Shown here one piece after another: positions 2,620 to 40,333 of a DNA stretch of 64,000 nt. A model generated the notes under the pieces. That model saw only the letters and a program-made list of their open reading frames with translations. It did no database searches and was not told where the DNA came from. Each line of letters starts with the position of its first letter. The first letter of the stretch is position 1. The translations under genes and the position numbers were made by a program. Origin of the DNA: Absidia repens (Eukaryota; Mucoromycota; Mucoromycetes; Mucorales; Cunninghamellaceae); NCBI GenBank assembly GCA_002105175.1, contig MCGE01000053.1, forward strand, positions 62,001 to 126,000, in the 5' to 3' direction.

Positions 2620-4925
2620 TTAGTAGATATTAAAAAACGTAACAAGAAGTTTAGCATTGAAATAGTTTTCGGTGCAGTCGCTGTCGCTGTCGTTGTCGAT
2701 GTAGTCGATGTCGTTGTCTCTGACGATGTCGAAGTCGTCGTCGCCATGGCATATCACATGATGCCTCATCCCGTAGGTTATTCCAGGCATCAGAATCCAT
2801 TTGTTTCTAACAAAACATCCGATCAAAGTGATGTGATCCCTAAAGACCGCTCCAGAGCGTGGGATAGAAACAATGTCAAAAGCACGCTGAGAAGCATCAT
2901 CCTCATCATCATCAGCATGGAGGCCAAGGCTTTTAAAAAGTGGCAACTCGTTGCGTATGGGTCTATAAAATTCGGTGATTTTTCCCACATAATATTCTTT
3001 TGGTTTCAAACGTAAATAATGTTGGTGCGAGTCAACACCGTCCTCTTCATCGTCATCGTCATCATCATCATTATTGTCATCACTATCATTGTTGCAATTG
3101 TTGTTGTTGATTTGTTTGTGATGATGATAAAGCATAATGATGGATGGATCTTTTACGTCGAAATTCGAAAAATTATTGATTTGACGCGCAAGGGTGGATG
3201 TCGAAGATAAAGTCGATGTTGCAAAGGTTGGTAAAACACCGCCATACATCGCCCTCTTATCACCGGACCAAAATAGCAGTGCTAATTTATCATTTGTGTG
3301 CATGATTTCGTAGAGTTTCAATTTCACGGATATCATAGTGTTGATTTTCCAATGCGACACCTCCAGTTTTCTATCTTGATATGGTGAAAATGGCAAAATA
3401 CTGTAAAATCGATCCTCTAATGGATTTTAAAATAAATATAAAAAAAAGGAATGTAAAATCATATTTTTTTTTTCCAAAATTAAGACGGGGTAATGTTCGT
3501 TGTTTGTTTGTTTCAACGTACCATTTTTACTGGCTTTGGAAATCAGAATGTTCTGCAGAAACGTTTGTCGACTGAGTTGACTGTTTAAAATATAATGGAA
3601 TTGGATGTACACTGGGTTGGAAGTTCTTGTTCTCGTGTGTCGTGTTATAATTTCGTCTTTGTAGTAATCAACATTCATATCTATGTCCGAAGGATCGTTA
3701 AAATCAAATTTGAAGAAGGTGAATTTTTCGCCGCCCTCCATGTCATTATACGTCTTAGGTGCATCATAATCAAGAGCCAATTGAGTAAACCAATATTTGA
3801 GGTTGTTTTTCTTTTTGGCGATATTGAATTCACTGATCACCCACACACGCGTAGACCAATCCTTGATGAGCCCCACCAAAAATTCCATCGATCGTCGAAT
3901 ACTGTTGCTTCTTTGAAGGATCTTGGATTTCCATTGAGAGTCAAGGAATTGATTCTGTTCGGCATATGTTAGATTGAAATCATATGAATGAACCACGTCT
4001 AGAGGACAGATCTTTTCGTCACACCGATGTAATTCTCCATTCGAATTCTTGCTGTTTCCTTTTATCCCAGTTTTCCAATGTTGACCACGCTCTTGATTCA
4101 TGGTGGTTTCGCAGAGATGATCGAGGGCTAGCACAGGACAATACAGATAAGAATATTTGTTGTATTTCATCAAACCATATGCAAAATGACTCGTGTTTTG
4201 AAGCAGTAATTGTCTTAATGCAGGAGGATCTTTTGGTACTTTGGCATCATCGAGGAATGATTCGTCCAGGGCGTCGAGTTGGGACGCATGTCCGTGAAGA
4301 AGGTGATAAAGATCCAGACAGAATTCGATGGAGCCCTCGATGGTGTCGGCATTTTTGAACGATATGCCTTTCAGGTAAGTCACATGAAGATCGGGTACTG
4401 CTAATATATATGTGGCGCGATCGTAGATATTGCTCATTTGGTGAATGGTTGCTTTTCGTTTTGCCGGGCTTTGATCCACACAGATAGCATCCACCCATAC
4501 ATAATTGATATCCTTTGTGTCCGATTCGATGGTCATCATTTCGCAAAGCTGATAAAAGTCACGTAAATCAAACGAAGTGATGGTTGCCGTGTAACCAACA
4601 CCAGTGTCGATAGACGTCTCGTGTAATTCGCCCCAACGGTAAGATAAAGCAACAAATTTCAAATCGTTTTCTTCGAGTGGCTTTTTAACACAGTGGATCA
4701 CATTGTCTTTAGCGGCCTTTTTAATGTCGACAAGAACCATTTGAAATGGCTTTTTTTGCCGTGGCTTGGTGTCTTTGAGTGATAAGTCTATAAAAAATAA
4801 AATAAAATAAAAACGTCATATCAGTCAATATGAGGTTGGTATAGAAAGGATCTAGTTAACAGAAATGTACGCTGTTTTTTGATATTACCTTGACCGAGTT
4901 TATCCGCTGTTTCGTCGATCGTCAT
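2620..4925 (-). CDS. HET-domain protein, subfamily I, copy 1 (intact)
   Basis: Join of 4889-4925, 3522-4787 and 2620-3416 (37+1266+797 nt) gives 699 residues with no stop. Exon 1 encodes MTIDETADKLGQ; both introns are phase 1 with GT..AG ends. HET blocks seen: FVALSYRWGE (57-66), YVWVDAICVDQ (108-118), then KATIHQMSNIYDRATYILAV, and RVWVISEFNIAKKK (about 325-338), which corresponds to the R-x-W-x-x-x-E block of known HET domains. Exon 3 has LEVSHWKINTM, an Asn/Asp-rich linker, LRLKPKEYYV and a C-terminus VTFFNIY instead of the usual FFDIY. HET proteins of other fungi trigger incompatibility cell death; that role here is inferred. The gene is head-to-head with the copy at 7.1 kb. A polyadenylation signal lies near 2570. 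Confidence 0.85.
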
Positions 4926-4997
4926 GATGTAGTTGAACGAAAAAAAAAAGAGAGAGAAGGAAAAGGAGGGAGACAAATAATTGACAGAATGAATGAT

Positions 4998-5014
4998 AAT
5001 GGCTCGGGGCACGT
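4998..5014 (-). promoter_or_regulatory. Conserved upstream motif CGTGCCCCGAGCCATT
   Basis: The motif lies about 75 bases before the ATG of the 2.6-4.9 kb gene, preceded by TTCGCCCG-like sequence. It is present upstream of every intact family member in both subfamilies, which suggests a shared core promoter or regulator site. Confidence 0.5.
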
Positions 5015-5334
5015 ATATGCGGGCGAACATAGCAAAATGGCGCTTCACTGTAACACAAACGCTCAATGAGATGCGCCAACTTTGTTTCAAATCAATGGGT
5101 GAAAGAGCAATACAGGTAGCTCTTTTTTATTCCCCAACGATCATAGTATAAGTAACAGTAAGAAGCTTAAATGAATAGTAGTTTATATAACAGTGGCAGA
5201 ATCTCTCGTTCTCTGTTATTATAGCATACCCCCTTGATGACGTTTGGTTCCTGCATTTATTTTCATGGCACATTTCATTTATATCCGTCATCAGTGAACT
5301 TTAATTCTTTACAATTTCAGAAACTCAAATCCCG

Positions 5335-5370
<36 letters not shown>

Positions 5371-5373
<3 letters not shown>

Positions 5374-6273
5374 ATGCTCTCTCCCTCTTGATGCTTTTTT
5401 TCTTCCTTCACCATTTTGGACTTCTTCAGATTATGGTGATCTTAGATCAGTGTTAGGACTAGTTTAGAAGTGTTTTCAGCTCAGGGATGACAACGTGCAT
5501 GGGGAAACTCTTTCATTTTGGTTCTAGGATCTACAATCACCCCCCCCCCATTAAATGACTTCATTAGATCAGTATTAGTCTTATTTTGTCCATAGTTTGT
5601 GTATCTACCTCTAAATAAAGAAATGACTGTTTTTATATATTTCAATGAAAAATGTCCCATTCGTTTCTTTCTCATGTCTTGTATACAAGAGATCCCTTTT
5701 TACCATCACTTCCCACTCCCCCCTCTTGGATAAGTATTGACCGGTGTTATGCTTCTTTAAAAGTTCCCCATTTGCAATTATTTCTCTTGTCTTGTACAAT
5801 ATATCGGCCCCCATTTCACAATTGCTCCCTTTACTTCGATCTGAGCATTCTTCAATCTCATTACTCTCCCCCCTGAATTCTCCAATAGATTCTTCCATCT
5901 CATCCTCTTTTTACAATGAATCCCTTTCTGTCTTTAGTTTTAGTATCTACCAATATACATTAATAAAAGGTGTCTTTTTTAAATACCACCCTTTTTTGAT
6001 AACAAACAACTATCTCTATTGTAGCTGTGTTTTGTGATTTGTCTTTCCTACGCTTAAAGTCACCCCATTTTTCCTCCGCAACCAGATTTAAACTATTTTA
6101 CTAGCAATGATATTCATATTCTTACTCTACCAATCATATATAAATGTGGCTCTAGGGTTCATGTTGTGCGTGTATATGTCATTGTTATAAAACATATATT
6201 GCACTCATTCCCTGATTCCCTAACATGTAAATATATATTCCATACTTTTACGAGTGTCAGTCAGATCACATAC

Positions 6274-6700: not shown

Positions 6701-7019
6701 TTTTCATTTTCCGGGCATCATGGAGTTTCAAATTTAGTGGCGATATATAATAGTTAGACGACTCGACACTACTTTATAACGCCATGATCCATTGAAGTTC
6801 TCACCGTTGCATAAATGATCTCCGTTGGCGTATAAACAGCAGCAATCCATCCATCCCAAATGGCTGAAAAGGAGGGGAGGGAGAGACTAAGAGCTTTGTC
6901 GAACGGTTCGGATTCGAAACAAAGATGTGGTATGTCAATGAGGTTGTGTGTTACAAACATATAACCGTACCTTGTTGCGTGTTTTGCTGAAATTTTTTTA
7001 AAAAACGCAAATAGATAGA

Positions 7020-7033
7020 TGCCCCGAGCCATT
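7020..7033 (+). promoter_or_regulatory. Conserved upstream motif TGCCCCGAGCCATT
   Basis: Exact match to the family motif about 65 bases before the ATG at 7096. It is followed by a pyrimidine-rich leader, as in the other copies. Confidence 0.5.
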
Positions 7034-7095
7034 TCATTCAGTCAATCATTGGTCACCTTCCTTTCTTTTTCTTCTTTTCCTGTTTTCTCAACAAC

Positions 7096-9360
7096 ATGAC
7101 GAACGATGAACCAGTAGATGAGCTCGGTAAAGGTAATTATCAAACACTGCGTCATTTTGATGGTTCATATAGTATCTTTTTAAAACCAACTAATGCTGAC
7201 GTATATGACTGTCTCTTTTACATAATTATTATAGACTTATCGCTCAAGGACACCCCCCAACAGCAGAAAACCCCATTTCAAGTTGTTCTTGTCGACATTG
7301 AAAAGGCCGCTCATGATAAAATAATCCACTGTGTTAAAAAGCCACTCGACGCACCAGAGTTAAAATTCGTTGCCTTGTCTTACCGTTGGGGCGAGTTACA
7401 CGAGACGCTAATCGACACTGGCGTTGGCTACACAGCATCAATCACGTCGTTTGCGTTGGATGATTTTTATAAGCTTTGCTATACGATGACCTTGGAATCG
7501 GATTTGCAACACATCAAGTATGTGTGGGTAGATGCCATCTGTGTGGATCAACAGCATCGGGGCAGGCGAAAAGCCACCATCTATCAAATGAGCAACATCT
7601 ACAGTCGCGCCACGTATATTTTAGCTGTACCTGATCTTCATCTGACTTACTTGAGGCGTGCCTCACTAAAAAATAATGACACCATTCAGGGCTCCAAAAA
7701 TTACTATGTGGACATTTATCATCTTCTTCACGGAAACATCTCCAAACTAGATGCTCTGGAAGAAGCATTCCTAGATAAAGCCAACGTACCAAGGGATCCT
7801 CCTGAAGCAAGATACTTACTGCTTCATTACACAGATCATTTTGCATCTAGCTTTACGAAATACCGAAAACATCATGATCAGTATTGTCCTATGCTAGCTC
7901 TTGATCATCTCGGTGTGACCAGTGACATTCAACCCCGCAGTTGGAAAAATTTGATAAGACACGGCAAGAAGTCCATTGGCGATGGATCACATCAGTGTCA
8001 TGAAACAGTTTGTCCCTTAACATTGTTTGAGGAAGATGTGGACATACGACCTTTTGGCGAAACAACACGATTCGACAATTCAAAATGGAAATCAAAGATC
8101 ATTGAAAGAAGCACCAGTATACGACAATCGATGGAATTTTTCACGGATCTCATCAAGGATTGGTCTTCACGTGTGTGGGTGATCAGTGAATTCAACATTG
8201 CCAAAAAGAAAAACAATCTCAAATATTGGTTTATTCAATTGGGACTTTATATTTACGATTTTGCCGTCTTTAAAGAAAGAAGAAAGAAAGACGAGATTAC
8301 TTTTTTCAAATTTGACTTTGATGCACCTTCCTTTTCGGATACCATTTTGAATTTGCCTTATTACGCAAATGAAAAAAAATCAAATACCACAAGGTCCGGA
8401 TCTAGCAACCCAGTTTATATACAGTTCCATTATACGATGATCCTTCAACTTGCTCAACAAACCTTTTTGCAGATGGTTCTGGGTTCCAAAGCCAGTAGAA
8501 ATGGTAACAATTCGAACAAATACGCGACGTTGGACTATTTAGAAAAATGATTCCAACTTTTTTTTTCTTTTTTTTTTTTTTTTGGAATAGAGGATCGATT
8601 TTACAGTACTTTACCCTTGTCAAGGTATGCTGACAAAAAAAGCGAAGTGTCCCATTGGAAAATCAACAGTATGTTATCCGTCAAATTAAAATTATTTGAA
8701 ATGATGAACACCAAAGACAAATTGACCCTACTCTTTTGGTCCACCGCTAAAGACGCCATCAAAAATCAAGTTTTCCCAACATTTGCAACATTCACTTTAC
8801 CTTTGGAATTTGATATGGAGAATTTTATAAATGGAATGGGTTATGATGCTTTTAATTTTGACTTGGATGATTCATCTACCGTCATACTCCATCAGCGGTA
8901 ACAAATAAACAACACCAACAATAGCCACAGTAATGATGATGATGATGATGATGATAATGATAATGATAAAAACAGCGGTAATGGTGGAGAATCAATCCAA
9001 TACTCCTTAGCTATTAAACCGAAGGAATATCATGTGCTAAAATATAACTATCGCAATGATTCCACCTTGAACTTGCTTACGAAGAGTAGATCGCTTCTTC
9101 ACAGCCTTGGCGTCAATGATGTTTCAACGCTCACTCTTGATATTGTGTTTATTTATGCTTTTCCGCTAAATGGACGTAATTCAATAGACGAGAGGGATTA
9201 CATTAAGCTGCCTGTTCTCATTTTGGTTGGATGTTTTGCTAAAAACAAATGGCTTATACCTTGTTACCCCGTTTACAGATTTTTAGGCCATGGAAATCTT
9301 CAGTTGTACAATAACGACGGCCAAGATAACAAGCCTATGGTTATTTTTGATATCTACTAA
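7096..9360 (+). pseudogene. HET-domain protein, subfamily II, copy 1, with premature stop in exon 3
   Basis: Join of 7096-7132, 7235-8503 and 8591-9360 keeps one frame of 692 codons, broken only by a TAA at 8899-8901. That stop falls where relatives have the HHHKQTNNN stretch, so a single substitution explains it. Translation would stop after 538 residues, keeping the HET domain (FVALSYRWGE, YVWVDAICVDQ, RVWVISEFNIAKKK) but losing the Asp-rich linker, IKPKEYHV, LVGCFAKNKW and the terminal VIFDIY. Exon 1 reads MTNDEPVDELGK. The open frame happens to run through intron 1, but the GT donor at 7133 and ATAG at 7234 match the other genes. A 27-base GT..AG intron spanning the stop is conceivable but shorter than I would expect. 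The truncated protein may still be made. Confidence 0.75.
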
Positions 9361-14357: not shown

Positions 14358-14461
14358 TTAGCAATTAAGCATACGATGTGACATTAGCAAAAAAAAATTT
14401 TGACATTTACTTCTTTATCCCGTTTACTATACTATTTCAACCTCTATTATTTTTATTTATT

Positions 14462-18274: not shown

Positions 18275-18594
18275 TTTTTTTTTCATTAGGATACCACGAC
18301 AATTGATTTGGCGACCAGTCCAAAAAAAAAAAAAAAAATAGCTTATCCTTTCTGATTAAACCCAATATATTCAATTATCCTATATCAACTAAACCAAATG
18401 TTGATGCTATGGCACAATAATGGTACAGTAACGCATGATAGATATAAATGATTGAACATTAATGATACATATCATCTGGTCAAGGTATGAAACAATCATT
18501 GGTTGCTTTTTTCAAGTATGTATGTAGCTGTTTATTAAATCAATCACCATAAAAAAAAATATTAAACGATACCACATCTTGGGGGGGGTTTTTT

Positions 18595-20875: not shown

Positions 20876-20946
20876 GATATAGTTGAACGAAAAAGAAAGA
20901 GAGAAAAGGAAAAGGAGGGTGACAAATGTTTGAGTGAATGAATGAT

Positions 20947-20964
20947 AAATAGCTCGGGGTACGT
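20947..20964 (-). promoter_or_regulatory. Conserved upstream motif (ACGTACCCCGAGCTATTT)
   Basis: Family upstream motif with two changes, about 75 bases before the ATG at 20875. Confidence 0.4.
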
Positions 20965-22655: not shown

Positions 22656-22799
22656 AAAAAAAAAAAAGTATCATAGACATGTAAGTGTTGTGTGATGTAA
22701 GAGGAAATAGACGTGGGGAGGGACTTTGGGCGTAAAAATTCATAAATATAAATTTAGTAAATCCGAAATCCGAAATTCGTTGTTCAAAGTTCAAATTAA

Positions 22800-23944
22800 A
22801 GCCAACATTGGACAGGACCGGCAACGTCGTCTGCTGCTCATCAGTTGCTGCCGAAGACGAAACATTTTTCACCTTTTTTAAGTTTGACTTTATCGATCCT
22901 GCATGCTCTGCGTCGCTCGGCAACAAAAACAACAAAATAACAACAGCAACAGCAACAACAACAACAACGACGACGACGACGACGATGACGCCCTCATTGA
23001 AACAATGTGTGAGACGGATATTCGACGATTCTCTTCCAACCTTGTTTACCTCCATTTACACCCTACTTTGATTTGTCAACTCAACCAGCAAACCTTCCTG
23101 GAGATGATATTGAAATCCGAAGAAAGGAAAAGTGGTAAAACGTTTAGCCCCCCTTTTTTTAATATATATACAGTATATATAATTCTAATTTTATTCGTTC
23201 TATGACAGAGGGTCGCTTTTACAGTATTCTGCTGTTATTGGACTATAAAGACAAACTTGTCAACAATAAAGTGGGTTAATGGCATATCACTACCATGGTG
23301 TCGGTCAAATTGAAACTATTTGAGTTCATGATTTCCTGGGACAAGTTGGGTCTTCTTTTTATGTCGGGCAACGAACAAACGAGAAACATAGGTAAAATGC
23401 TACCAACATTTGCAATATCCACAATCACTTCGGCAACAAAAGGTCAACACCAAAAGCTGGATGGTGACAAGTACGGCATGCAATTTTGATAGGACCAAAG
23501 ACGCGATTGCGACGTTCGCCCCACCACCATGAATAATAACAACAAGAGCAACAACAGTACATGTCATCATGATGGTGGCCTGTACTACCTTCATATCAAA
23601 CCCAAGGAATATTTTAGTGGGTTGGTGGACGAAAAAGAGTGGTCTCAACGACATTGCATGTCGCCGAATCCCGAATGACTGAAGCGGCTTGCTATCATTC
23701 AAGAGAACACTATTCCCCACTCCGGTGGATGTTGCTTAAATCGCCTTTTTATCGTCAAAGCATCAAGAGACAATTTTGTATGTCCAAAACATGTCATGAC
23801 CACTCGATTTTTTTTTTTAAATGAAAGTTTTGTAGAAAATAAATGGACATTAGATCATGGTCTAAATTACCACACCCCTTTTCAATATATAGCGACTGGA
23901 CGTATCATCTCAATAGTGATGATCGTGGATTTGATATCTATTAA
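22800..23944 (+). pseudogene. Decayed HET-family gene, subfamily II type
   Basis: Recognisable islands in order: FFKFDFIDP near 22878; HPTLICQLNQQTFLEMILKS near 23050-23118, followed by a GT donor; an AG acceptor and GRFYSIL near 23210-23230; MVSVKLKLFEF to MLPTFAISTITSAT (23295-23435); IKPKEYFSG near 23600; SFVENKWTLDHG near 23830; and the family end GFDIY with TAA at 23942-23944. The HET core exon is absent and the frame changes repeatedly. (AAC)n/(GAC)n expansions lie at about 22920-22990. It occupies the plus-strand partner position of the 18.6-20.9 kb gene. Confidence 0.8.
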
Positions 23945-24859
23945 ATTCATTTCCTACAGTATGATACATATTCAATAAAAACGAGGATACTTTTTTTTTT
24001 TTTTACTGCACTGTCATTAACGTTCTGGGTCCTACCCATTCTACCCTTTTGAGTTCTTCGTTCCTGTATTTCTATTTCTTTTTTTTTACACTTCCGTTCC
24101 ACCACCCAAAAAAAAAGGATTGCTTATAATAGAATGGGATACAGTCTGAGGGGGGGGAGGTAAGGATAATGAAAAGAACATATTTTATCGGAAGGACTGT
24201 GGTAGATAATAAACTAAAGGGTTAAATATAGCAACGTATGCTGCTAATGGAGTTAGCATGACGAGAAACTAATGGGGAGAGAAAGAGAGAAGGGGGATCT
24301 AAAGAATGTTCAACACTCATCTAAAGTCACTATTGTAGAAAAGGATCTAATATAAAGTATATGTAGGACAAGAATGATAATTTTTTAGAAGCAAACAATG
24401 GGTCAACACGTTCAATATCTAAATGAGTCATAATAAAAAGGATCTCTTGTACAAGACATGGAAGTGACTAATATGACATTTTTTGATTGAACTTTTTTTT
24501 TTTTAAAAAAAAAAAAAACAGATTTTATTGAACTGTAGATACGAACTATGGACAAACTAAGACAAAACTAAGTCAATGGAGGATCCGATAAGCTAAAACT
24601 AACAGTGGCTGTAGATCCTAAATCCGAAATGAAAGGGTTTCTGTTGTAACCAAATAAAATACTATATATTAAAAACCTGTTTATTGCAAAATAAGAATAA
24701 GATATAAAATAAGAATAAGATAAAATGAAGAGAGGGGAGGAGCTAAAAAGTACTTACCGTTATTTTGGCAACGGTTTCGAGTATGAAAAAAAAAAAAAAA
24801 AATATAAGGTAGAGAAAAAGGGGAAAGAGAGAGAAAAATATAAATGTCAAAAATATATA
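23945..24859. other. Gene-free AT-rich stretch
   Basis: Contains the tail of a repeat B copy at about 24540-24645 (AAATGAAAGGGTTTC, truncated) and AATAAGAATAAGATA microsatellite-like sequence near 24690-24725. No gene is supported. Confidence 0.4.
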
Positions 24860-25662
24860 ACAGTCTAAGTCCTAAAAAAGGAGTCGCTATCACAACATAG
24901 CCTTCGACTTGATAGTACATTTCATAATTGCATAAACTATTTTAATACAATAAAGATCGGGATACAGTACCGGTACAATTATATGGATATATGATTCAAA
25001 AAAAAAAATATGTAGCAAGTAAAATCAAGAAATCTCAAGAGACACTTCACTAGATATTAAATATCATAAAAACGTTAGAAGGGAAAAATCCAACACTTCA
25101 GGGACTATTCTTTTTTTTTTGGAAATGTCAAAGTCTCCGACATAAAAACAAAATATTAATCATTCTGTGTGGGTGGTAGACTTTGTTTGTATCAAGAACC
25201 CGTTTCTCGTATGAAATGGGCGTCATGCCACCAAAGATGACACGAATGAAAAGGCTCTGATTTCTGCAGACACTTTTGCATGAATTTCGTTTTAAACGCC
25301 GCGTCGCCAAATAAGGTATGCTAGGGGCACGAATACTCTAGCACGGGTAACGGTGCCCAAAATTCTGAAGCGGTATTTTAAAATGTCATTTGCCCTTTGG
25401 CAATCATAACGAGAAGATTTTGATGATGGATGTTCCAAAAACCTTATCTGCGAAAATAAAATGGTATTGTCAATCTGGAGGTATGTCCTTTTTTTTTTTT
25501 GGCCTATGAAGTGATAGAGGATAAACATAAACAGGGAACTCGACTATTTTATTATCTTTCAAGTGACTCATTATGGCTCTCTATGGTATAGAAGGTGTAC
25601 AAAGCCATTCATTATACAGCATGGACAATGCATGTTGTGCAAAAAAAAAAAAAAAAAAAAAA
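24860..25662 (+). repeat. Repeat part A with long upstream extension, uninterrupted copy
   Basis: The best uninterrupted reference for the copy at 12.4-14.2 kb. It includes CATTTCATAATTGCATAAAC near 24928, CACTTCAGGGACTATTC near 25093, TGCATGAATTTCG near 25277 and GCATGGACAATGCATGTTGT at 25619-25638, then an A tract. CTTTCAAGTGACTCATTATG at about 25556 is the empty site for the hAT insertion. Confidence 0.75.
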
Positions 25663-25912
25663 GAATAGCTTATCCTCTCTGATTAAACTCATTATATATT
25701 TACTTATCCTATATCAACTAAACCGAATGTTGATGAGGTGGCACAATGATGGTACAGTAACGCATGATAGATATAAATGATTGAACATCAATTCTACATA
25801 TCATCAAGCCAAGGTATGAAACAATCATTGGTTGCTTTCCAAGTATCTGTGTAGCTGTTTATTAAATCAATCACCATACAAAATATTTAAACGATACTAC
25901 ATCTTGGGGTCT

Positions 25913-28146
25913 TTAGTAGATATCAAAAAAAGGCTTAGCATCACGGTCGTCGCTATCGCATATCGCCTGACATTTCACTTGGACATCTAGAATGGCTTTA
26001 GGTGACAGAATCCATTTGTTTCTAACAAAACATCCGATCAAAGTGAGGAAATCAGGATCGGTAAAGCCAGCAAGTGGGATAGAAACAATGTCAAAAGTAA
26101 GCGTTGAAGCATCATCCTCATCATCAGCATGGAGGCCAAGGCGTTTAAAAATTGGCCACTTGTTGCTCATGATGCTATGAATTTGTTTGCGCCCAGATTC
26201 ATCGAGATCTGCCACAAGATATACTTTCGGTTTCAAACGTAAATAGTGTTGGTGCGTGTCACCACCGTCCTCTTCATCATCATCATCATCATAGTTGTTA
26301 TTGTTGTTGTTGGCTTGTTTGTGATGATAATAAAGCATAATGGTGGATGGATCCTTTACGTCAAAATTCGAAAAAGCTACGTCGAGACTATTGATTCGAT
26401 GCGCAAGGCGGGATGTTGAAGTTAAAGTCGATGTTGCAAAGGTTGGTAAAACATCGCTATGCATCGCCCGCTCATCACCAGACAAAAATAGCAGTGCTAA
26501 TTTATCTTTTGTGTCCATGATTTCGTAGAGTTTCAATTTCACGGATGGCATAGTGTTGATTTCCCAATCCGACACCTCCAGCTTTCTGTCTTGATATGAT
26601 GAGAATGGCAAAATGCTGTAAAATCGATCCTCTAGTGAATTTTAAAATAAATAAAATAAAAAATAAAAAAAGGAATGTAAAATCTTTTTTTTTTCTAAAA
26701 TTAAAAGAGCAGGGTAAGGATCATTGTTTGTTTCAACTTACCATTCTTACTGGCTTTTGAAATCAGAATGTTCTGCAGAAACGTTTGTTGACTGAGTTGA
26801 CTGTTTAAAGTATAATGAAATTGGATGTACACTGGGTTGGACGAATATGTTCTCGTCCGTCGTGTTCTAAATTCGTCTTTGTAATAATCAATGTTCATAC
26901 TGATGTCCGAAGAATTGTTAAAATCAAATTTGAAGAAGGTGAATTTTTCGCCGCCCTCTATATTATTATATGTGTGAGGTGCATCATAGTCAAGACCCAA
27001 TTGAATAAACCAATATTTGAGGTTGTTTTTCTTTTTGGCGATATTGAATTCACTGATCACCCACACACGCGTAGACCAATCCTTGATGAGCCCCACCAAA
27101 AATTCCATCGATTGCCGAATACTGTTGCTTCTTTGAAGGATCTTGGATTTCCATTGAGACGCACGGAATTGACAGACTTCGTCACATGATGAATCGATAA
27201 CTATTGAAGAAGACAAGTCTATAGGACAAATCGTTTGATCACATTGATGTAACTCTCCATTCGAATTCTTGTTGCTCCATTTTATCCAAGTTTTCCAATC
27301 TTGACGACGCTCTTGATTGGCGGTGGTTTGGCAGATATGATCGAGGGCTTGCACAGGACAATAAAACTCAGGATAATTGTTTAATTCATCAAACCATATG
27401 CAAAATGATTGGTGTTTTTAAGCAGCAACTGCCTTAATGCAGGAGGATCTTTTGGCACTTCGGCATCATCGAGGAATGCTTCATCCAAGGCGTCGAGTTG
27501 GGACGCATGTCCGTGAAGAAGGCGATAAAGATCCATTTTGTATTTGTCGGAGCCGTCGATGGTGTCTTCATTTTTAAACGATACGCCTTTCAGGTAAGTC
27601 ACATGAAGATCGGGTACTGCTAATATATATGTGGCGCGTTCGTAGATATTGCTCATTTGGTGAATGGTTGCTTTTCGTTTTGCTGGGCTTTGATCCACAC
27701 AGATAGCATCCACCCATACATAATTGATATGTTTTGTATCCGATTCGATGGTCATTATTTCGCAAAGCCGGTAAAAATCATTTAAATCAAACGATGTGAT
27801 GGTTGCTGTGTAACCAACGCCAGTGTCAATCAACGTCTCGTGTAATTCGCCCCAACGGTAAGACAAGGCAACAAATTTCAAATCTTTTCCCTCGAGTGGT
27901 TTTTTAATACAGTGAATTACTTTATCTTTAGCGGCCTTTTCAATGTCGACAAGAACCACTTGAAATGGCTTTCTCTGTCGTGGCTTGGTGTCTTTGAGTG
28001 ATAAGTCTATAAAAAAAATAAAAAAAATAAAAAACGTCATATCAGTCAATATGGGGTTGGTATAGAAAGAATCCAGTTAACAAAAATGTACGTTGTTTTT
28101 TGATATTACCTTGCCCGAGTTTATCCACTGTTTCGTTGATCGTCAT
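25913..28146 (-). pseudogene. HET-domain protein, subfamily I, copy 3, single-base frameshift
   Basis: Exons 28110-28146, 26742-28006 and 25913-26631 match the family exactly except that exon 2 is 1265 rather than 1266 nt. At about 27383, after FAYGLMN, one base is missing and a TAA follows at once; the other frame resumes with PEFYCPVQALDHICQTT. Without the lesion the product would be 673 residues with all HET blocks and a C-terminus FFDIY. As read, only the N-terminal half (to residue about 222 of the open frame) would be made. It is head-to-head with the intact gene at 30.0 kb. A sequencing error cannot be excluded because the rest is perfectly conserved. Confidence 0.75.
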
Positions 28147-28223
28147 GATGTAGTTGAAAGAAAGAAAAAAAAAAAAAAGGGAAGGAAAAGGAGGGTGACA
28201 AATGATTGACAGAATGAATGATG

Positions 28224-28241
28224 AGTGGCTCGGGGTACGTA
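28224..28241 (-). promoter_or_regulatory. Conserved upstream motif (ACGTACCCCGAGCCACT)
   Basis: Near-exact family motif about 80 bases before the ATG at 28146, followed upstream by GTTCGCCCGC. Confidence 0.45.
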
Positions 28242-28558
28242 TATGCGGGCGAACATCACAAGAAGGCGCTTCACTGTAACACAAACGCTCAATAAGATGC
28301 CCCACCTTTGTTTCACAAATCAATGGGTGAAAGAGCAATACAGGTAGCCCTTTTCCCCAACGATCATAGTATATGTAACAGTAAGCTCAAATGAATAGTA
28401 GTTTATATAATAGTGGCAGAATATCTTGGTTCAGTTATTATGGCATACTCCTTTGATGACTTTTGGTTCCTGAATTTATTTTTATGGTGGATTTCATTTA
28501 TAACCGTCATCGGTGAACCTTAATTCTTTACAATTTTGGAACTTCAAATCCCGCACGA

Positions 28559-28592
<34 letters not shown>

Positions 28593-28596
<4 letters not shown>

Positions 28597-29620
28597 ATGC
28601 TCTCCTCCTCTTGATCCTTTTTTTTCCTTCACTATTTTGGACTCCTTCAGACAATGGTGATCTTAGGTCAGTGTTAGGACTAGTTTAGAAGTGTTTTCAG
28701 ATCAAGGATGACAACATGCATGGGGAAACCCTTTCATTTCGGTTCTAGGTCTTGACAACCTTCATTAGCTAAATTTAGTGTTAGTTTATCCATAGTTTAT
28801 CTATGCATTTGAATAAAATATGAATATCTTTTTACATGCTCCAATAAAAAGTATGTCCCAATAGTCATTCTCATGTGTTGTGCAATAGATCCCGTTTTTA
28901 TTACCACCATCTCTTTAGATTAGTTTTGACCATTCTTCAAATCTCACAGTTAGTCATCTCATGTTGCCTTCAATAGATCATCTGTAGCGAGTGCTTGATG
29001 TGTGTTGCTGATGTGGGTAACCCCTATGAAATAATTTGATCGTTTTTACTGTGCATGCCAATATTTAGGACTCCCATAACAATGGCATGGGGCAAATGGC
29101 AATTGTTAGTCTATGTTTTTATAGTTTTGGTGAGGAGAAATTTCTCGCCATTATACTAAAAATGGGGGGGGATAGCAGGCTAGTTATCTATATAAAAGAT
29201 GTTTATCATCTCATTATCTTTCATTTTAAAAATTGATGTCGAGCGGGGCTGCTGGTTGAAGTTGCTCATTTTTGCCAAATTTTCACTGCGAACTTTTTGG
29301 TTTTGCACAATATGCATTGTTCATGCCGTATGTTGAATGATTCTATACACCTTCTATACCTCAGAGAGCCATAACTCATCACTTGAAAGATAATAAAATA
29401 GTCGAGTTTCCTGTTTATATTTATCGTCTATCATTCCATAGGCCAAAAAAGGAAAAGGACATACCTCCAGATCGCCAATACTATTTTATTAAACATATCA
29501 CTTTTGGAACATCCATCATCAAAATCTTCTCGTCATGATTGTCCAGCTAAATGGCAATTTTAATTATCGCTTCAGAAGTTTAGGTACCTGCTGCCCGTGC
29601 GCCTAGCATTCCCTAAAAGT
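28593..29620 (-). repeat. Dispersed repeat AB, copy 4 (inverted, near full length)
   Basis: Part B (core ATGCATGGGGAAACCC near 28717), the middle part with GCGGGGCTGCTGGTTGAAG near 29242, and inverted part A from TTGCACAATATGCATTG (about 29310) to CGTGCGCCTAGCA near 29604. The A tract usually separating A from the middle part is missing here. Confidence 0.7.
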
Positions 29621-29953: not shown

Positions 29954-30009
29954 CTTTCTGCCAACGGTTCGTCACTTTTTTTTTCTTCCTTTCAATTCTC
30001 ATCTATACC

Positions 30010-32212
30010 ATGACAAGTGACGCAGCAGTGAATGAACTCGGTCAAGGTATAATATCTAAAATGCCATTTTGTTGACAATACCATGTATCTATATATTATA
30101 AATCCAACCCCGTATTGACTTGTATGACTTTTTTGTTTAGACTTATCACTAAAAGACACCCAGCAACAGCAACAGCAAAAAGAGTCATTTCAAGTTGTTC
30201 TTGTCGACATTGAAAAGGCCGCTAAAGATAAAGTAATTCACTGTATTAAAAAACCACTCGAGGATAAAAATTTGAAATTTGTTGCCCTGTCTTACCGCTG
30301 GGGCGAATTACATGAGACGTTGATCGATACGAAAGTGGGTTATATAGCGTCCATCACATCGTTTCATTTAAACGATTTTTATCAACTTTGCCATATGATG
30401 ACCTTGGAATCCAATTTGAAGCATATCAAGTATGTATGGGTGGATGCCATCTGTGTGGACCAACGCCCGAGCAAACGAAAAGCCACTATTTATCAAATGA
30501 GCAATATCTACGAACGCGCCACGTATATTTTAGCCGTGCCTGATCTTCACTTGACGTACTTAAAAGGCGTCTCGCTAAAAAATAACGACACCATCGAGGG
30601 CGCCAACGAATACAGTAAAGATATTTATTACCTTCTTCACGGAAACACCGACGGACTCGTTGCCCTGGATTTAGCTTCCCTTGATGATTTCGGAGTACCA
30701 AAAAATCCTCCCGCATTGAGACAATTGCTGCTTAAATGCACAGACCATTTTGGGCATAGTTTTATGACATACACAAGGCATGATGAGTTATATTGTCCCG
30801 TACTCGCTCTCGATCACATCTGCGTCTCCAATGCACTACAACGTGACCAGTGGAAAGCTTGGGTAAAAAATAGCAAGAAATCTTTTGGTGATTTACATCA
30901 ATGTCATGAAGTCATTTGCCCTTTAAAAATGTTTTATGAATATGACTTTGGGACTACACCTAAAGAGTATTGTCAATTCGACGGTGCTAAATGGAAATCA
31001 AAAATTCTTGCAAGAAGCAACAGCATACGACAATCGATGGAATTTTTAACGGATCTCATCAAGGATTGGTCTTCTCGTGTGTGGGTGATCAGTGAATACA
31101 GCATTGCCAAGAAGAAAAACAATCTCAAATACTGGTTTACTCAATTATCATTTCCCTATAACGGAACGGCGTACTATGATCACATGAAAGAGGAGAAGGA
31201 AAAACTGTCCTTCTTCAAATTTGACTTTAATGATTCTTCCTTTTCGGATTTCATGATGGATGTTGATTATTACAAAGATCAAAGTGAAGTAAAATTTACA
31301 AGATCAAGGACGACCAACCCAGTTTATATACAATTCCATTCTACGATGATACGTCAACTTCGTCAACAAACCTTTCTGGAGATGATGCTGAGGTCCAAAG
31401 CAAGTAGAAATGGTAAAGTTTAAAAAGAATAAATTCAAAAAGACTTGATTTTCGAGAATTCATCCTATTTTTTTTTTTTTTTTTTTCATATAGAGGATCG
31501 ATTTTACAGTATTTTGCCATTGTCAGAGCATGCCGATCAAAAAACAGAGGTCTCACATTGGAACATCCAGAGTATGGTATCGGTCAAATTAAAACTGTAC
31601 GAAATCATGAACATCAAAAACAAATTGGCCCTTCTTTTTTGGTCTACCCATGAAAATGCCATCAAAAATGATGTTCTCCCAACATTTGCGACATCCACTT
31701 TACCAGCAGAGTTCCAACTTGGAATTTTTCTAAATATCATCTCCCACTATCCCTGTAATTTTGATTTGAACAATCCATCCACAATTACTTTTCATCATCA
31801 CAAGCAACAAACCAACAACAACAGACAACAGGATGATGATGATGACTGTCACCGGTACTTCCTGCGTTTGATACCGGAGAAATATCATGTGATGCACCAT
31901 CACAATCTACCTGAAGCCGCCATCTATTTACTAAGGGATAGTATACCGATCTGTAAACGCCTTGGCATCTATCATGCTTTTACTGAGACGCTTGACATTG
32001 TAGCTATTCCAGCATTCCCCACGTCTGGCTTTCATTCCACCTGTGATGAATTTTACCATCTTCAGTCTTTTATCCTTTTGGTCAGATCTTTTGTTGAAAA
32101 CAAATGGATGATACCATGTAAACACTACGCCTACGATACATCAGACTATGATGAGGTCTACTTGGATGACAGCGAAGGGGAAAGCTCTGCGGATTTTTTT
32201 GATATCTATTGA
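30010..32212 (+). CDS. HET-domain protein, subfamily II, copy 2 (intact)
   Basis: Join of 30010-30046, 30141-31412 and 31494-32212 (37+1272+719 nt) gives 675 residues with no stop. It is the only undamaged subfamily II gene in the window. Exon 1 reads MTSDAAVNELGQ, then DLSLKDTQQQQQQKESFQVV. HET blocks: FVALSYRWGE, YVWVDAICVDQ, RVWVISEYSIAKKK (Phe to Tyr and Asn to Ser changes here). Subfamily II marks are DIEKAA, TDLIKDWSSRVW and LSEHADQKTEVSHW at the start of exon 3. The Asn/Asp linker is short (NNNRQQDDDDD), followed by LRLIPEKYHV, LLVRSFVENKW and the terminal DFFDIY. It is head-to-head with the frameshifted gene at 25.9-28.1 kb. An intact partner of a broken gene would test whether the pairs depend on each other. 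Confidence 0.87.
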
Positions 32213-33890: not shown

Positions 33891-34045
33891 CACCCCTCGA
33901 ACCAAAAAAAAAAAAAAAAAAAAAAAAAAATAGCTTATCCTTTCTGATTAAATTCAATATATTTAATTATCCTATACCAACTAAACCGAATGTTGATGCT
34001 ATGGCAAAATAATGATACAGTAACGCATGATACATCTTTTGTTTT

Positions 34046-36362
34046 TTAGTAGATATCAAAAAAAGTAACAGGAGGCTTAGCATCGCTGTTGTTGTTGATG
34101 TAGTCGTCGTCGTGGCCATGGCATATCACACGATCTCCCTTTTCAGAAATTACTATGGCTTTAGGTGACAGAATCCATTTGTTTGTAACAAAACATCCGA
34201 TCAAAGTGAGGGAATTAGAAGGTAAACATATCGGCACAGTATATGGGATAGAAACAATGTCCAAAGTACGCTTAGAAGCATCCTCCTCATTATCAGCATG
34301 GAGGCCAAGGCGTTTTAAAATTGGTATCTTGCTGCGCGCGATGCTATGCATTTTTTTGCTGCGCCCATCTTCGTTGTGTTTTACCACAAAATATTCTTTC
34401 GGTTTCAAACGTAAATAGTGTTGGTACGAGTCACCACCGTCCTCTTCATCTTCATCATCATTATCATCATCATCATCATCATTGTTGCTATTGTCGTTGT
34501 TGGTTTGTTTGTGATGATGATAAAGCATAATGGTGGACGGATCCTTTACGTCAAAATTCGAAAAAGCTACGTCGGGACTATTGATTAATCCTGTAAGGTG
34601 GGATGTCGAAGTTAATGTCGATGTTGCAAAGGTTGGTAAAACACCGCTATGCATCGCCTCCTCGTCACCAGACAAAAAGAGCAATGCTAATTTGTCTTTT
34701 ATGTGCATGATTTCGTAGAGTTTCAATTTGACCGATAGCATAGTGTTGATTTTCCAATGCGACACCTCCAGTTTTCTGTCATGATATGGTGAGAATGGCA
34801 AAATACTGTAAAATCGATCCTCTAATGAATTTTAAAATAAATAAATAAAAAAAAAAAAAGAATGTAATTTTTTTTTTTTTGTTTTTTGCTAAAATTAAAA
34901 GAGCGGGGTAAGATTCGTTGTTTGTTTCAACTTACCGTTTTTACTGGCTTTTGCAATCAGAATGTTCTGCAGAAATGTTTGTCGACTGAGTTGACTTCTT
35001 AAAGTATAATGGAATTGGATGTACACTGGGTTGGACGTTCTTGTTCTCGTCCATTCTGTTGCAATTTCGTTTTCGTAGTAATCAACGTTTATACTGGTGT
35101 CTGAAGAATTGTCAAAATCAAATTTGAAGAAGGTGAATTTTTCGCCGCCCACCATGTCATCATACGCCTCAGATGCTTGGGAGTCATGAGCCAATTGAGT
35201 AAACCAATATTTGAGGTTGTTTTTCTTTTTGGCAATATTGAATTCACTGATCACCCACACACGCGTAGACCAATCCTTGATGAGCCCCACCAAAAATTCC
35301 ATCGATTGTCGAATACTGTTGCTTCGTTGAAGGATCTTGGATTTCCATTGCGCCTCCAGGAATTGACATATTTCGTCATGTGAATCATCGTCTTCGTCAT
35401 CTGAATCATCCAAGATATAACCTGAATGAAACACGTCTATAGGACAAATCGTTTTGTCACACCGATGTAATTCTCCATTCGAATCCTTGCTGCTCCCTTT
35501 TATCCCAGTTTTCCAATGTTGACCGCGCTCTTGATTGGTGGTAGTTTCGCAGATGTGATCGAGGGTTTGTACAGGACAATACACAACAGAAAGCGACTTG
35601 CAGTTCATTAAACCATATGCAAAATAATTCGTGCTTTTAAGCAGCAATTGTCTTAATGCAGGAGGATCTTTTGGCACTTCGGCATCATCGAGGAATACCT
35701 CATCCATGGCGTCGAGTTGGGACACATTTCTGTGAAGAAGGTGATAAAGATCCATATGGTATTCGCTGGAGCCTTTGATGGTGTCTTCATTTTTGAACGA
35801 TATGCCTTGAAGGTAAGTCAAATGAAGATCGGGTACTGCTAATATATATGTGGCGCGATCGTAGATATTGCTCATTCGGTGAATGGTTGCTTTTCGTTTT
35901 GCCGGACTTTGATCCACACAGATAGCATCCACCCATACATAATTGATATGCTTTGTATCCGATTCGAAAGTCATCATATGGCAAAGCCGATAAAAATCAT
36001 CTAAATGAAACGATGTGATGGTTGCTGTATAGCCAACGCCAGTGTCGATCAGCGCTTCGTGTAATTCGCCCCAGCGGTAAGATAAAGCAACAAATTTCAA
36101 ATCGTCATCTTCGAGAGTCTTTTTAACACAGTGGATTACTTTATCTTCAGCGGCCTTTTTAATGTCGACAAGAACCACCTGAAATGGCTTTTTTTGTCGC
36201 GGCTTGGTGTCTTTGAGCGATAAGTCTATAAAAATAAAATAAAATAAAAACGTCATATCAGCCGATATGGAATTGGTGTAGAAAGAATCCACTTAACAGA
36301 AATGTTCGCTGTTTTTTGATATTACCTTGACCGAGTTTATCCACTGTTTCGTCGATCGTCAT
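34046..36362 (-). CDS. HET-domain protein, subfamily I, copy 4 (intact)
   Basis: Join of 36326-36362, 34936-36225 and 34046-34821 (37+1290+776 nt) gives 700 residues with no stop. Exon 1 reads MTIDETVDKLGQ. The HET blocks are unchanged. Exon 2 is 24 nt longer than in most copies because the variable loop after KTICPIDVF has an extra acidic insert (DDSDDEDDDSHDE). Exon 3 has LEVSHWKINTM, a long Asn/Asp linker, LRLKPKEYFVVKHNEDG, a variable IPYTVPICLPSNS, LTLIGCFVTNKW and the terminal VTFFDIY. It is head-to-head with the broken copy at 38.1 kb. Unlike its neighbours, the 3' UTR is short; the common 3' block is cut by ~100 bases. Confidence 0.87.
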
Positions 36363-36439
36363 GATGTAGTTGAACGGAAAAAAAAAGAAAAAAAAAAAAG
36401 GAAGAGGAGGTTGACAAATAATTGACAGAATGAATGATG

Positions 36440-36456
36440 AATGACTCGGGACTCGT
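36440..36456 (-). promoter_or_regulatory. Conserved upstream motif (ACGAGTCCCGAGTCATT)
   Basis: Family motif with several changes, about 80 bases before the ATG at 36362; TTCGCCC-like sequence lies just upstream. Confidence 0.35.
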
Positions 36457-36803
36457 ATATTAGGGCGAACATAACAAAAAGGCGCTTTACTGTAACACAA
36501 ACGCTCAATGAGATGCCTCACATTTGTTTCATAAATTAATGGGTGAAAGAGTAAAACTGGTAGCCCTTTTTTTATTCCCCAACGATCATAGTATATGTAA
36601 CAGTAAGAAGCTTAAATAAATAGTAGTTTATATAAGAATGGCAGAATGTATAGATTTAGTTATTATGGCAAGCTCCCTTGATGACGTTTGGTTCCTGAAT
36701 TTATTTTTACGGTGGATTTCGTTGATAACCGTCATCGGTGAACCCTAATTCTTTACAATTTTGGAAATTCAAATCCCGCACGCTTTTTTTTTCTTTATTT
36801 TTT

Positions 36804-37920
36804 TGCTGATGGTCTCTCCCTCTTGATCCTTTTTAATTCCTTCACCATTTTGGACTTCTTCAGACAATGGTGATCTTAGGTCAATGTTAGGACTAGTTTA
36901 GAAGTGTTTTCAGAACAGGGATGACAAGATGCATGGGGAAGCCCTTTCATTTTGGATCTAGAATGTGAAGACCTCCGTTAATCAGTTGAACTTTTTTTTT
37001 CTGTCTTCATTAGCTTAGTTTAGTGTTTGTGTATCAAAAGTGTGCATACACATCTGAATAAAATATGTATCTTTTTACGTAGCTTTATTGAATATATTAT
37101 GTCCCCATTCATCTTTCTCATGTCTTGCACAAGAGAGATCCCTTTTTACTATTGTCTTTCTTTTGGTTATTGTTGACGGTTGTTATGTGCTTTAATAAAA
37201 GATATCCAAGCACAGCTCTTTCTTAGTCTCCTTACAGTATATACAGGTACTTTTTTACAGCTGTACCTTTAGAAAGAGCTTCGCCATTTCTTCAAATCTC
37301 TTAGTCTATTCCCTCATTGCCTCTCCAATAGATCCTTTCATCTAGTGCCTTGTTACAGACAATCCCCTTCTCGTATTCGGCTTTAGTATCTACCAGTATG
37401 CTTCTATTAAATATGTCCTTTTTAATAAATTTTGCAGTACCTTGCTTCATAATAAAAAAATACCTCTTATTGTAGCTATTTTGTGGTTTCGTCTTAGTAA
37501 ACACTAGGCCCTTTTATTTGACCCCCACCGATAATTAGTTTTCCCTCGGCCCCCCCATCATCGGGTTAGAAACTGACTTGATCATATTTATAACTACTTG
37601 ACTTTCAACAATAACCTTAGTCGTGCTCTGCCAATTATATATAAATGAAATCTAGGTTGTGCTTTTGAAGATAATCATTATCACTATAGAGTAGATTACA
37701 TTTGCTTTCTTGCCTATATATTTTCAGGAACCAAAAGAGCTACCAAGTAGAATGCCCTGCTAACTGAACAATCAACCTCCAACAGCTGTCTACGCCATAT
37801 TATTTATCTTGGCCCTCACCTATTGTATAAACTATCATCGCAAGAAAATAAGAAAACGAGTACTGGAAGAAAGTCAGTGGTGGGTATTTATTCATTCAAA
37901 ACAAACGTATGGTAACTCAT
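36804..37920. other. Head-to-head spacer of pair 4 with repeat part B
   Basis: Part B in minus orientation at about 36804-37080 (core ATGCATGGGGAAGCCC near 36930), then pyrimidine-rich AT sequence. No gene was seen. Confidence 0.45.
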
Positions 37921-37971
37921 TGAGTTTTTGTGCTACTAGCAAACACCGTTTTGTTATGTTCCTTATATAGA

Positions 37972-37986
37972 CGTGCCCCGAGCCAT
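37972..37986 (+). promoter_or_regulatory. Conserved upstream motif CGTGCCCCGAGCCATT
   Basis: Exact family motif about 68 bases before the ATG at 38052, even though the gene itself is broken. This suggests recent inactivation. Confidence 0.5.
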
Positions 37987-38051
37987 TCTTTTTCATCCAT
38001 AGTTTGCAAACAAGCTCCATTTTTCTTTTCTTTTCTTCGTTTCACCTCATC

Positions 38052-40333
38052 ATGACGGCCGACGACCCAGTGGATCACCTTGGCGAAGGTAAATATCAAA
38101 AAATAAAATAAAATAAGCGTCCATTTTTGCGATGACTGTATCATATGTAAATTTTTCAATATAGCAGTCCTTGTATTGACTGATATCACTTTTCCTCTTC
38201 TCATACCAAATATTCTCGGTTCAAAGGCATTCAGCCACGACCGAAGAAAAAAAAGCCATTCCAAGTTGTTCTTGTGGACATTGAAAAAGCCGCAAAAATA
38301 AAATGATCCACTGTGTGAAGAAGACTCTCGAGGATGACGATTTGGAATTTGTGGCGTTATCTTACCGTTGGGGTGAATTACACGAGACTCTGATCTATAC
38401 TGGCGTTGGTTACACGGCATCCGTCACATCGTTTGCCTTGGATGATTTTTACGAGCTTTGCTATATGATGACGTTGGAACCAGATTTAACAGATATCAAG
38501 TATATGTGGGTGGATGCCATCTGTGTGGATCAACGTCCATCGAAGCGAAAAGCCATCATTTATCAAATGAGCAATATCTATGAACGAGCCACGTATATTT
38601 TAGCCGTGCCCGATCTTCACCTGACTTACTTGAAAGAAATATCTATCAAAATAACGAAATCATACAAGGTGCCAAGAAATATTGTGTATATATTTACCAT
38701 CTTATTGATGGAAACAGCTCCCAACTCGCTGCCATGGAAAAGGAGTTCCTTGATGACGCCAACATACCATCCAATCCCCCTGAAATAAGGTCATTACTGC
38801 TTAAATACACGGACCATTTTGCGCATGCCTTTATGAATTTGGAATACCATATGGATTATTATTGCCCTATGCGATCTCTTGATTACGTCTACGAGAGCAC
38901 CAGTCATCATGATCATTGGCGAAATTGGATAAAACGCATCAGCAGCAGCAGCATTAAGAAGACGATGGGTGGATTACACAAATGCCACGAAACGGTTTGT
39001 CCTTTACAATTATTTTCTCAAAAGGACAACACAACAACATGGGAGCAACGGGAAGAGTTCAACACGTCTCATTGGAAATCAAGGTCATTGAAAGAAGCAC
39101 CAGTATACGACAATCGCTGGAATTTTTGACAGATCTCATCAGGTATTGGTCGTCTCGTGTGTGGGTGGTCAGTGAATTTAACATTGTCAAAAAGAAAAAC
39201 AACCTCAAATATTGGTTTGTTCAACTCTCCTACCCTTCTAACTACTATGATTCTGACAGCGAAGTAGACAATGTGATCATGGTGGACGAGAGTTTCCACT
39301 TTTTCAAATTCGACTTTAAGGACACATCTTTTTCGGATGCGATGCTGAAGACGCCTTGCTACGGCAACACAGATATGGCAGAACGAACGAGATCCTATTC
39401 GACCAATCCGATTTATTTATACTTCCATTATATAATGGTCCATCAATTAAGTCAACAAACGTTTCTGGAGATGATTCTAAAGTCCAAGGCCAGTAGAAAC
39501 GGTACGTTTTAACAAATACACACACAAAAAAAAAATAGACTTGGTTTTAAGAAAATGGTTCTATGTACCTATACTTTTTTTTTTTTTAATAAAAAATAGA
39601 GGACTGGTTTTATAGTGTTTTACCATTGTCAGAGTATGCCCCCAGGCAAACGGAGGTATCTCATTGGGCAATCCATAGTATGGTGTCTGTCAAATTAAAA
39701 CTCTACGAAATCATGACCACGAGAGACAAATTGGCTCTCCTTTTTTGGTCCGCCGACCACGAAGCCATCAAAAATGGTGTCCTCCCGACATTTACAACAT
39801 CGACATTGCCACCGGAGATCGACAGGGATTTTCCTTCATGTTTTATGGGTATCCATTTCTGCAATTTCGACTTGGATGACCCATCCACCGTGTTTCTTCA
39901 TCGTCATGATCAAGCCGACAACAATGAAGAAGAAGACGACGACGATGATGGTGATGGTGGGTCGAACCAATTGTACCATTGCCTACGTTTGAAACCGAAA
40001 GAATATTATGTGACCGACATCGAGTCTGATTTAGATGACTCTCTGGATTGTATTACAATATGTAAACCATTTTGTAAGCAATTTAACATCAATTATGCTT
40101 CTTTTGCTAAGGTATATATTCCTATTTTTCAAAATGCTGATTTGGAAGATATCTACGATAAGCGGCGATTGCATTTTTTGACTTTAGTTGGATGTTTTGC
40201 CACGAACAAATGGATAATAGTATCTGACGCTCTCCGGCAATATGTTGATTATATCAGATATCTATGTTATAAAACGCATTGTAATGACGACCAATTGGAT
40301 AATAAATCGGTTGACTTTTTTGATATCTATTAA
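38052..40333 (+). pseudogene. HET-domain protein, subfamily II, copy 3, several frameshifts
   Basis: Exon 1 (38052-38088, MTADDPVDHLGE) is clean. The usual ATAG-ACTTATC acceptor is lost; homology restarts at CCACGACCGAAG near 38235. Base losses occur at about 38297-38303 (KAAK, then a new frame at MIHCVKK), at about 38650 (ISIKIT instead of SIKNN) and at about 39080 (WKSRSLKE instead of WKSKVIERS). Exon 3 (39600-40333) is fully open, with LSEYAPRQTEVSHW, Asp/Glu linker, LRLKPKEYYVTD, LTLVGCFATNKW and the end VDFFDIY. HET blocks FVALSYRWGE, YMWVDAICVDQ and RVWVVSEFNIVKKK remain readable. An open exon 3 beside a broken exon 2 may mean separate constraint or simply chance. Confidence 0.8.

Follow-up and report, generated by a model that had tools for sequence, protein, structure and literature searches.

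The 64,000-nucleotide stretch of the genome of Absidia repens (Mucoromycota, Mucorales, Cunninghamellaceae) analyzed here (contig MCGE01000053.1, abbreviated C49, positions 62001-126000; hereafter the window) carries part of an array of HET-domain genes (PF06985), in which minus-strand genes of one sequence group, subfamily I, face plus-strand HET-family genes, referred to as II-type, or a remnant of such a gene. An earlier note on this DNA had proposed that the head-to-head pair was the unit of duplication. We consider it probable (about 0.65) that these pairs instead arose as blocks were duplicated and partners exchanged in a birth-and-death HET array, and that they are not copies of one ancestral working pair. 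Direct observations underlie this reading, concerning the arrangement itself, the subfamily I clade, silent-site divergence, shared block ends, duplication of the I block, differences between partners and broken members.

The arrangement described in the earlier note was found at all four places, i.e., at 2.6/7.0, 18.6/22.7, 25.9/30.0 and 34.0/38.2 kb of the window, with a minus-strand I gene facing a plus-strand HET-family gene or remnant. The components, in window positions, are:

2349..5362, minus strand: m66, subfamily I block of about 3.0 kb with A/T-tract ends; the HET exon (3430-4815) is open, as is the last exon (2623-3426)
5357..5701, plus strand: flank A upstream of m66, a 0.4-0.7 kb upstream element common to I copies, the middle of which is a dispersed repeat
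7015..9264, plus strand: p70, II-type gene, partner of m66; HET exon open, stop within the last exon
18322..21305, minus strand: m82, subfamily I block; open HET and last exons, contained in 18598-20834
21289..22017, plus strand: flank A upstream of m82
22664..24500, plus strand: R facing m82, a truncated HET-family relic without a HET domain
25646..28588, minus strand: m90, subfamily I block; HET exon frameshifted, last exon open
28580..29310, plus strand: flank A upstream of m90
30010..32209, plus strand: p93, II-type gene, partner of m90; open, with a public model (P0001, 675 aa, three exons)
34032..36804, minus strand: m98, subfamily I block; HET and last exons (34049-36292) open, the true 3' end may extend slightly further
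36794..37151, plus strand: flank A upstream of m98
38192..40330, plus strand: p101, II-type gene, partner of m98; HET exon with frameshifts and stops

Between the edges of the HET-exon open reading frames (ORFs), the gaps are 2200 bp (m66/p70), 2052 bp (m90/p93) and 1900 bp (m98/p101), while that of m82/R, measured up to where the relic first matches at the protein level, is 2189 bp. What had been taken for a gene at 22.8 kb is this relic, which has no HET match and no sense ORF longer than 111 aa. At the ORF level and as assembled, none of the four window pairs is open on both sides, the broken members being the p101 HET exon (frameshifts and stops), the p70 last exon (stop), the m90 HET exon (frameshift) and R. 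The three-exon structure, in which the HET exon is preceded by a short exon and followed by a last one, was borne out by p93 and two other genes with public models. In p93, the first exon encodes about 12 residues from an ATG at window position 30010; the HET exon comes after an intron and is separated from the last exon by a further, short intron. The models of p24 and m131 likewise start in a short upstream exon; a two-exon gene model is ruled out by this first exon.

If the pairs had been copied as units, similar silent-site divergence (dS) would be expected for I and II partners. Between pairs, the I partners m66, m82, m90 and m98 differ by dS values of 0.199-0.255 (HET and last exons), whereas p70 and p93 differ by 0.645 (HET exon, 425 codons), and p101 differs from p70 by 0.78 and from p93 by 1.01 in a HET region of just 120-122 codons, as well as from p93 by 1.03 in the last exon. 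The silent divergence of the II partners is about 3 to 5 times that of the I partners, and no other observation argues as strongly against the I/II pair having been the unit. Accordingly, the proposal of pair duplication does not hold for I/II pairs (dS 0.20-0.26 versus 0.65-1.0) unless the I genes were homogenized. Recent II duplications exist too (p56/p70, dS 0.17; p24/p34, dS 0.20).

Subfamily I, in turn, was copied as a discrete block. A self-comparison of C49 revealed that each I gene sits within a repeated block of about 3.0 kb. In an alignment of 14 I units, an A tract marks the start of homology, 471-571 bp ahead of the edge of the HET-exon ORF, and in m105 this stretch includes the short first exon. 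Inspection of this alignment by eye indicated that homology stops at a T tract past the gene and is followed by a few alternative flank families, some of which stand on the 5' side of one I copy and, reversed, on the 3' side of another. For 24 of 27 ends of I units, an A/T run of at least 10 bases is no more than 15 bp away, compared to 6.9% of all positions, a statistic that is biased upward by BLAST alignments running on into A/T tracts, so that the multiple alignment is the better evidence. The ends without such a run nearby are both of m98 and the 3' end of p156. Among the ends of all blocks above 500 bp, 29% are near an A/T run (17% by end clusters); the pattern is strong in I blocks and mild elsewhere. 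Overall, C49 contains 273 A or T runs of at least 10 bases in 178 kb, approximately 1 per 650 bp, many of them at I block ends.

The first flank bases, those of flank A, are an identical set for six I genes on C49 (m66, m82, m90, m98, p116 and p137), and flank A is also found beside m97 and m76 on a second contig, C50. By coordinates, m66, p27 and several I genes on C50 and C62 additionally have it in the vicinity of their 3' side. Its core (window 28654-28940) is a dispersed repeat of about 290 bp with AATAAA-like motifs, for which a first look yielded about 2290 candidates genome-wide; 22 of 40 scored places are on contigs other than C49, C50, C62 and C69. Flank identity among m66, m90 and m98 is 71-79% (Jukes-Cantor distance about 0.25-0.36), and these distances are nearer to those of I than to those of II. 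Furthermore, copies without a head-to-head partner also carry the 5' portion of the I block together with its upstream region. Because this part travels with I to partner-free sites, co-regulation through a shared promoter would not be needed to explain the arrangement.

Evidence for a change of partners comes from m82 and m90, which share the I block and approximately 870 bp of flank at 83% identity and then diverge into R and p93, respectively; beyond the shared flank, the sole remaining match, 111 bp long, links R to the coding region of p93. Since a common I gene and flank lead into different partners, the partner appears to have changed at a break between these copies. R itself recurs: copies at 75-87% identity face I genes at m82, p137 and p156 on C49, at m97 on C50 and at a degenerate I-like gene on C71, with one more copy at 140.9-142.5 kb of C49 and a trace near m139 on C50. 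The combination of I, flank A and R is found at m82, p137 and C50 m97, and that of I and R without flank A at p156 and on C71. For I and R, mostly with flank A, duplication as a head-to-head unit is thus upheld, in partial agreement with the earlier note, while for the I/II pairs it is not. All four C49 copies of R are broken, with longest sense ORFs of 111, 170, 108 and 201 aa, which argues against R as a functional HET-less partner.

In a first tree, subfamily I forms a clade with a support of 100/98 (24 of 42 rows) and, in a second tree, 100/100 (22 of 37 rows). With a further copy at 42.4 kb of C62 (78% identity), this amounts to at least 25 I copies. The second tree and its topology tests exclude C49 p16, m90, p101 and m131 as well as p12 on C65 (fragments or long branches). 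II-type genes, sampled on other contigs through 20 stretches, 13 of which are from C50, form poorly resolved deep branches, interspersed with genes from C33, C40, C57 and C65. No mixing of I and II was seen, so the tree does not contradict the earlier note in this respect; of its two sequence subfamilies, I is a clade, and II does not emerge as a subfamily. A tree with 15 proteins of Absidia cylindrospora, from which p16, m90, p101 and C65 p12 were left out and to which one extra A. repens protein was added (both sets of proteins taken from 120 database matches listed), placed one A. cylindrospora protein as sister to the I clade (100/100). C57 p5 (100/100), C65 p16 (100/100) and p24/p34 (99/96) have A. 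cylindrospora relatives of their own, and no close relative of p70 or p93 was found among the 15 proteins. The expansion of I therefore seems to postdate the split from A. cylindrospora, with at least some II lineages probably older than that split. On C50, two near-identical II-type genes (29775-31076 and 81971-83272, both minus strand; branches of 0.02-0.03) lie about 52 kb apart, each just 3' of its own I gene and reading the same way as that gene, i.e., a recent duplication.

The proposed strand fidelity of the two subfamilies is not borne out overall. That each subfamily keeps to its own strand is true for II on C49 (seven of seven genes on the plus strand) and not for I, with seven copies on either strand, including plus-strand copies at 53.0 and 58.0 kb of the window. 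Three further I blocks lie in the window:

41491..44477, minus strand: m105, subfamily I block; open, without a II-type head-to-head neighbor, with a flank A-like copy about 2.6 kb upstream
52474..55451, plus strand: p116, subfamily I block; flank A upstream at 51752-52486 (minus strand)
57419..60387, plus strand: p121, subfamily I block; without a head-to-head partner

On C50, the minus strand carries 8 of 9 I genes and 4 of 4 II genes. Within 8 kb on C49 and C50, I/II neighbors comprise 8 tandem, 3 divergent and 2 convergent cases, and when strands were shuffled within contigs, at least 3 divergent cases arose in 42.8% of 20,000 trials. Genome-wide, HET neighbors within 8 kb (n = 78) are tandem in 53, divergent in 14 and convergent in 11 cases, with tandem placement enriched (binomial p = 0.002) and divergent placement not enriched (p = 0.19). 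As divergent placement is not enriched on these two contigs or across the genome, the alternation of I and II in the window is a local feature. Moreover, 20 of the 23 I genes on C49 and C50 have no II-type head-to-head neighbor within 8 kb.

As for the mechanism, what was copied in the young I clade, at least 25 times, is a discrete unit of about 3.0 kb that comprises upstream region, gene and A/T-tract ends, in either orientation and often with 0.4-0.9 kb of upstream flank. Recombination at A/T tracts may have produced the blocks, which would have landed beside older, mutually divergent II genes or the truncated relic R. Each protein would presumably act as a stand-alone HET (TIR-like) cell-death switch, with its more variable C-terminal part taking part in a non-self response; a review of HET proteins describes the HET domain as sufficient for cell death (PMC10197012). 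Rather doubtful is the broader idea of cassette shuffling in an immune-type array, in which A/T-tract-bounded blocks of upstream region plus HET gene, in both orientations, would recombine a constant HET gene with different HET partners.

Several points weigh against block duplication with partner exchange. Some of the frameshifts may be assembly errors, the block-end statistic is inflated as described above, the p101 distances come from few codons, and the dispersed repeat within flank A could mimic shared descent. In addition, the recurrence of I and R head to head is close to what the earlier note proposed. Approximately unbiased (AU) tests did not reject a clade of p70, p93 and p56 (p = 0.468 and 0.372 in two trees), of the paired I genes m66, m82 and m98 (p = 0.323), or of all ten II genes from C49 and C50 (p = 0.189), nor did they reject a clade of the four R-facing I genes (p = 0.188). 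With p values of 0.19-0.47, these five tests of four groupings are too weak to exclude any of them, and the tree alone decides nothing on the paired sets.

The alternative that survives best, although we consider it unlikely, is that an old head-to-head I/II unit was duplicated whole, with I later homogenized by gene conversion and II left to diverge, so that the pairs would be true paralogs as pairs. The dS values of the I copies could have been reduced by gene conversion, which is the main escape from the divergence contrast and which a star-like I tree would fit. The junction of I and flank A common to six C49 genes and flank A beside C50 m97 and m76 fit such a unit, but flank A lies outside the I block and still has distances nearer to I than to II. 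Likewise, the AU tests leave clades of paired genes unrejected. Against such a unit, p56, the sister of p70 in the tree (C49:55.5-57.7 kb), has its upstream I neighbor, m42, about 12.7 kb away. The recurrence of I, flank and R at three places would also be accounted for; however, m82 and m90 have a common flank and different partners, and the I/II neighbors within 15 kb on C50 are all tandem (7/7).

Very unlikely is a third possibility, namely that subfamily I resides on a transposon-like element (e.g., gene capture of the Mutator-like element (MULE) type) with flank A as its terminal repeat. The discrete ends of the 3.0 kb block would suit such an element, as would the outward-reading copies of flank A that border m66 on either side and occur close to other I units at their 3' side, and an ORF for a MULE transposase (PF10551; window 14369-15418, plus strand) lies between two pairs. 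In MULE and Pack-MULE capture, target-site duplications of 8-11 bp accompany terminal inverted repeats. When the boundaries of 14 units were aligned, however, neither a target-site duplication nor a fixed terminal inverted repeat was seen by eye, no systematic search having been made, and flank A has as its core a dispersed repeat with more than half of its scored places off the four contigs C49, C50, C62 and C69.

Finally, that the pairs are functional two-protein receptors, with I as constant executor and II as variable sensor as in plant head-to-head NLR pairs, would fit one constant gene with several different partners in equivalent relative position, a weak, putative TIR likeness of the HET part and the constraint on II HET exons (median dN/dS, the ratio of replacement to silent divergence, of 0.38 in 15 comparisons of 6 genes), but is highly improbable given that no window pair is open on both sides, that divergent placement is not enriched, that most I genes lack a II-type head-to-head neighbor, that the recurrent partner R is broken and that the upstream part of I is also found without a partner. 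Medians of dN/dS on C49 were taken over 10 HET and 12 last exons of I and 6 HET and 5 last exons of II.

The array in the window is part of a large HET repertoire. Across the genome (47.37 Mb, 79 contigs), a PF06985 profile search with 171 candidates yielded 150 scored places, each of which exceeds the Pfam cut-off, and 10 further exons bring the total to about 160 loci, these counts being lower bounds. Four contigs hold 104 of the 160: C29 (37), C33 (32), C49 (22) and C50 (13). The six window HET exons scanned, including those of m66, p70, m82 and p93, all match PF06985 (44.6-52.8 bits, cut-off 22.5). On C49, where a home-made profile found 22 HET exons, the tight group I shares about 70-90% pairwise identity, and II-type exons share about 53-65% among themselves and with I, apart from the close pairs p24/p34 (85%) and p56/p70 (83%); p16, m90 and p101 entered as fragments with only the HET region compared, which inflates their scores. 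One gene, at 131 kb, is more distant, at about 43-48% identity. The Pfam search found no domain besides HET, leaving the C-terminal part without a Pfam match, and sequence searches of solved structures gave no match up to E = 1, while none of 9 Foldseek matches was below E = 0.001. Any likeness of the HET part to TIR is weak, with VIA alone pointing to TIR at a middling Z.

Three more close divergent HET neighbors, with 1.8-3.1 kb between HET domains, lie outside the I cluster at C29:38091/40916, C33:312307/315395 and C43:152381/154208. The window also contains ORFs of 326 aa (17094-18074, plus strand) and 369 aa (44282-45391, plus strand) without a Pfam match, the latter overlapping the 5' end of the m105 block. 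To the left of the window, a block duplicated at 89% identity (C49:36635-39528 and 49546-52473) flanks the I gene m42, and its left copy includes an ORF with a CorA-like Mg2+ transporter domain (PF01544). On the right side of the array, a 1129-aa ORF (C49:165448-168834, minus strand) with reverse transcriptase, RNase H, integrase and chromodomain belongs to a Ty3-type retroelement.

Large HET families in Mucorales are already published; it is the anatomy of duplication that is unusual here. According to Schwartze et al. (2014, PMC4133162), Lichtheimia corymbifera, a member of the Mucorales, has a group of 56 genes, 52 of them HET (PF06985), with HET being one of the dominant domains in tandem duplications and stated at that time to be absent from other sequenced zygomycetes. 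Multiple HET copies are also described for Apophysomyces (PMC5604411). A. repens resembles L. corymbifera as a member of the Mucorales with a HET expansion, but differs in having about 160 loci instead of 52, with at least 25 copies of one young clade that lie in A/T-bounded blocks and in both orientations, the two expansions being compared by description only. At het-B of Podospora, a two-gene allorecognition locus (Bh, HET-lectin; Bp, PII-like), a HET gene functions together with its neighbor, specificity resides in the C-terminal part, and the cluster is conserved in 28 of 31 taxa with varying orientation (PMC10890737). The adjacency of a HET gene to another gene is similar here; however, the het-B partner is not a HET gene, whereas in A. 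repens both are, and their adjacency is not conserved between C49 and C50. The likeness to plant head-to-head NLR pairs, with divergent orientation and one constant and one variable side, is superficial, since HET is the only Pfam domain found, no pair is open on both sides, divergence is not enriched, and the pair is not conserved as a unit within this genome. Ascomycete HET proteins, as summarized in the review, have an N-terminal TIR-related HET domain, lineage-specific expansions and a non-random genomic distribution (PMC10197012); the proteins described here differ in their Mucoromycota host and in a C-terminal part without a Pfam match. Among the open-licence literature matches listed, there was no report of Absidia HET genes or arrays or of HET-HET head-to-head pairs.

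One database search with a subfamily I query returned no subfamily I protein among the 120 matches listed, although several II neighbors have models, and repeat masking may be the cause of this absence from annotation. Therefore, HET gene counts in such genomes are possibly too low. The window also provides a useful negative result, as strand regularity and divergent placement over 40 kb can arise without pair duplication. HET genes are cell-death genes found in abundance in fungi, but their function in Lichtheimia is described as unclear because Mucorales reportedly form no heterokaryons by somatic fusion (PMC4133162). On that account, about 160 HET loci in a member of the Mucorales point to a role other than classical allorecognition, and the array would represent a route by which a HET repertoire grows, with one clade multiplying as discrete blocks while older lineages persist alongside.

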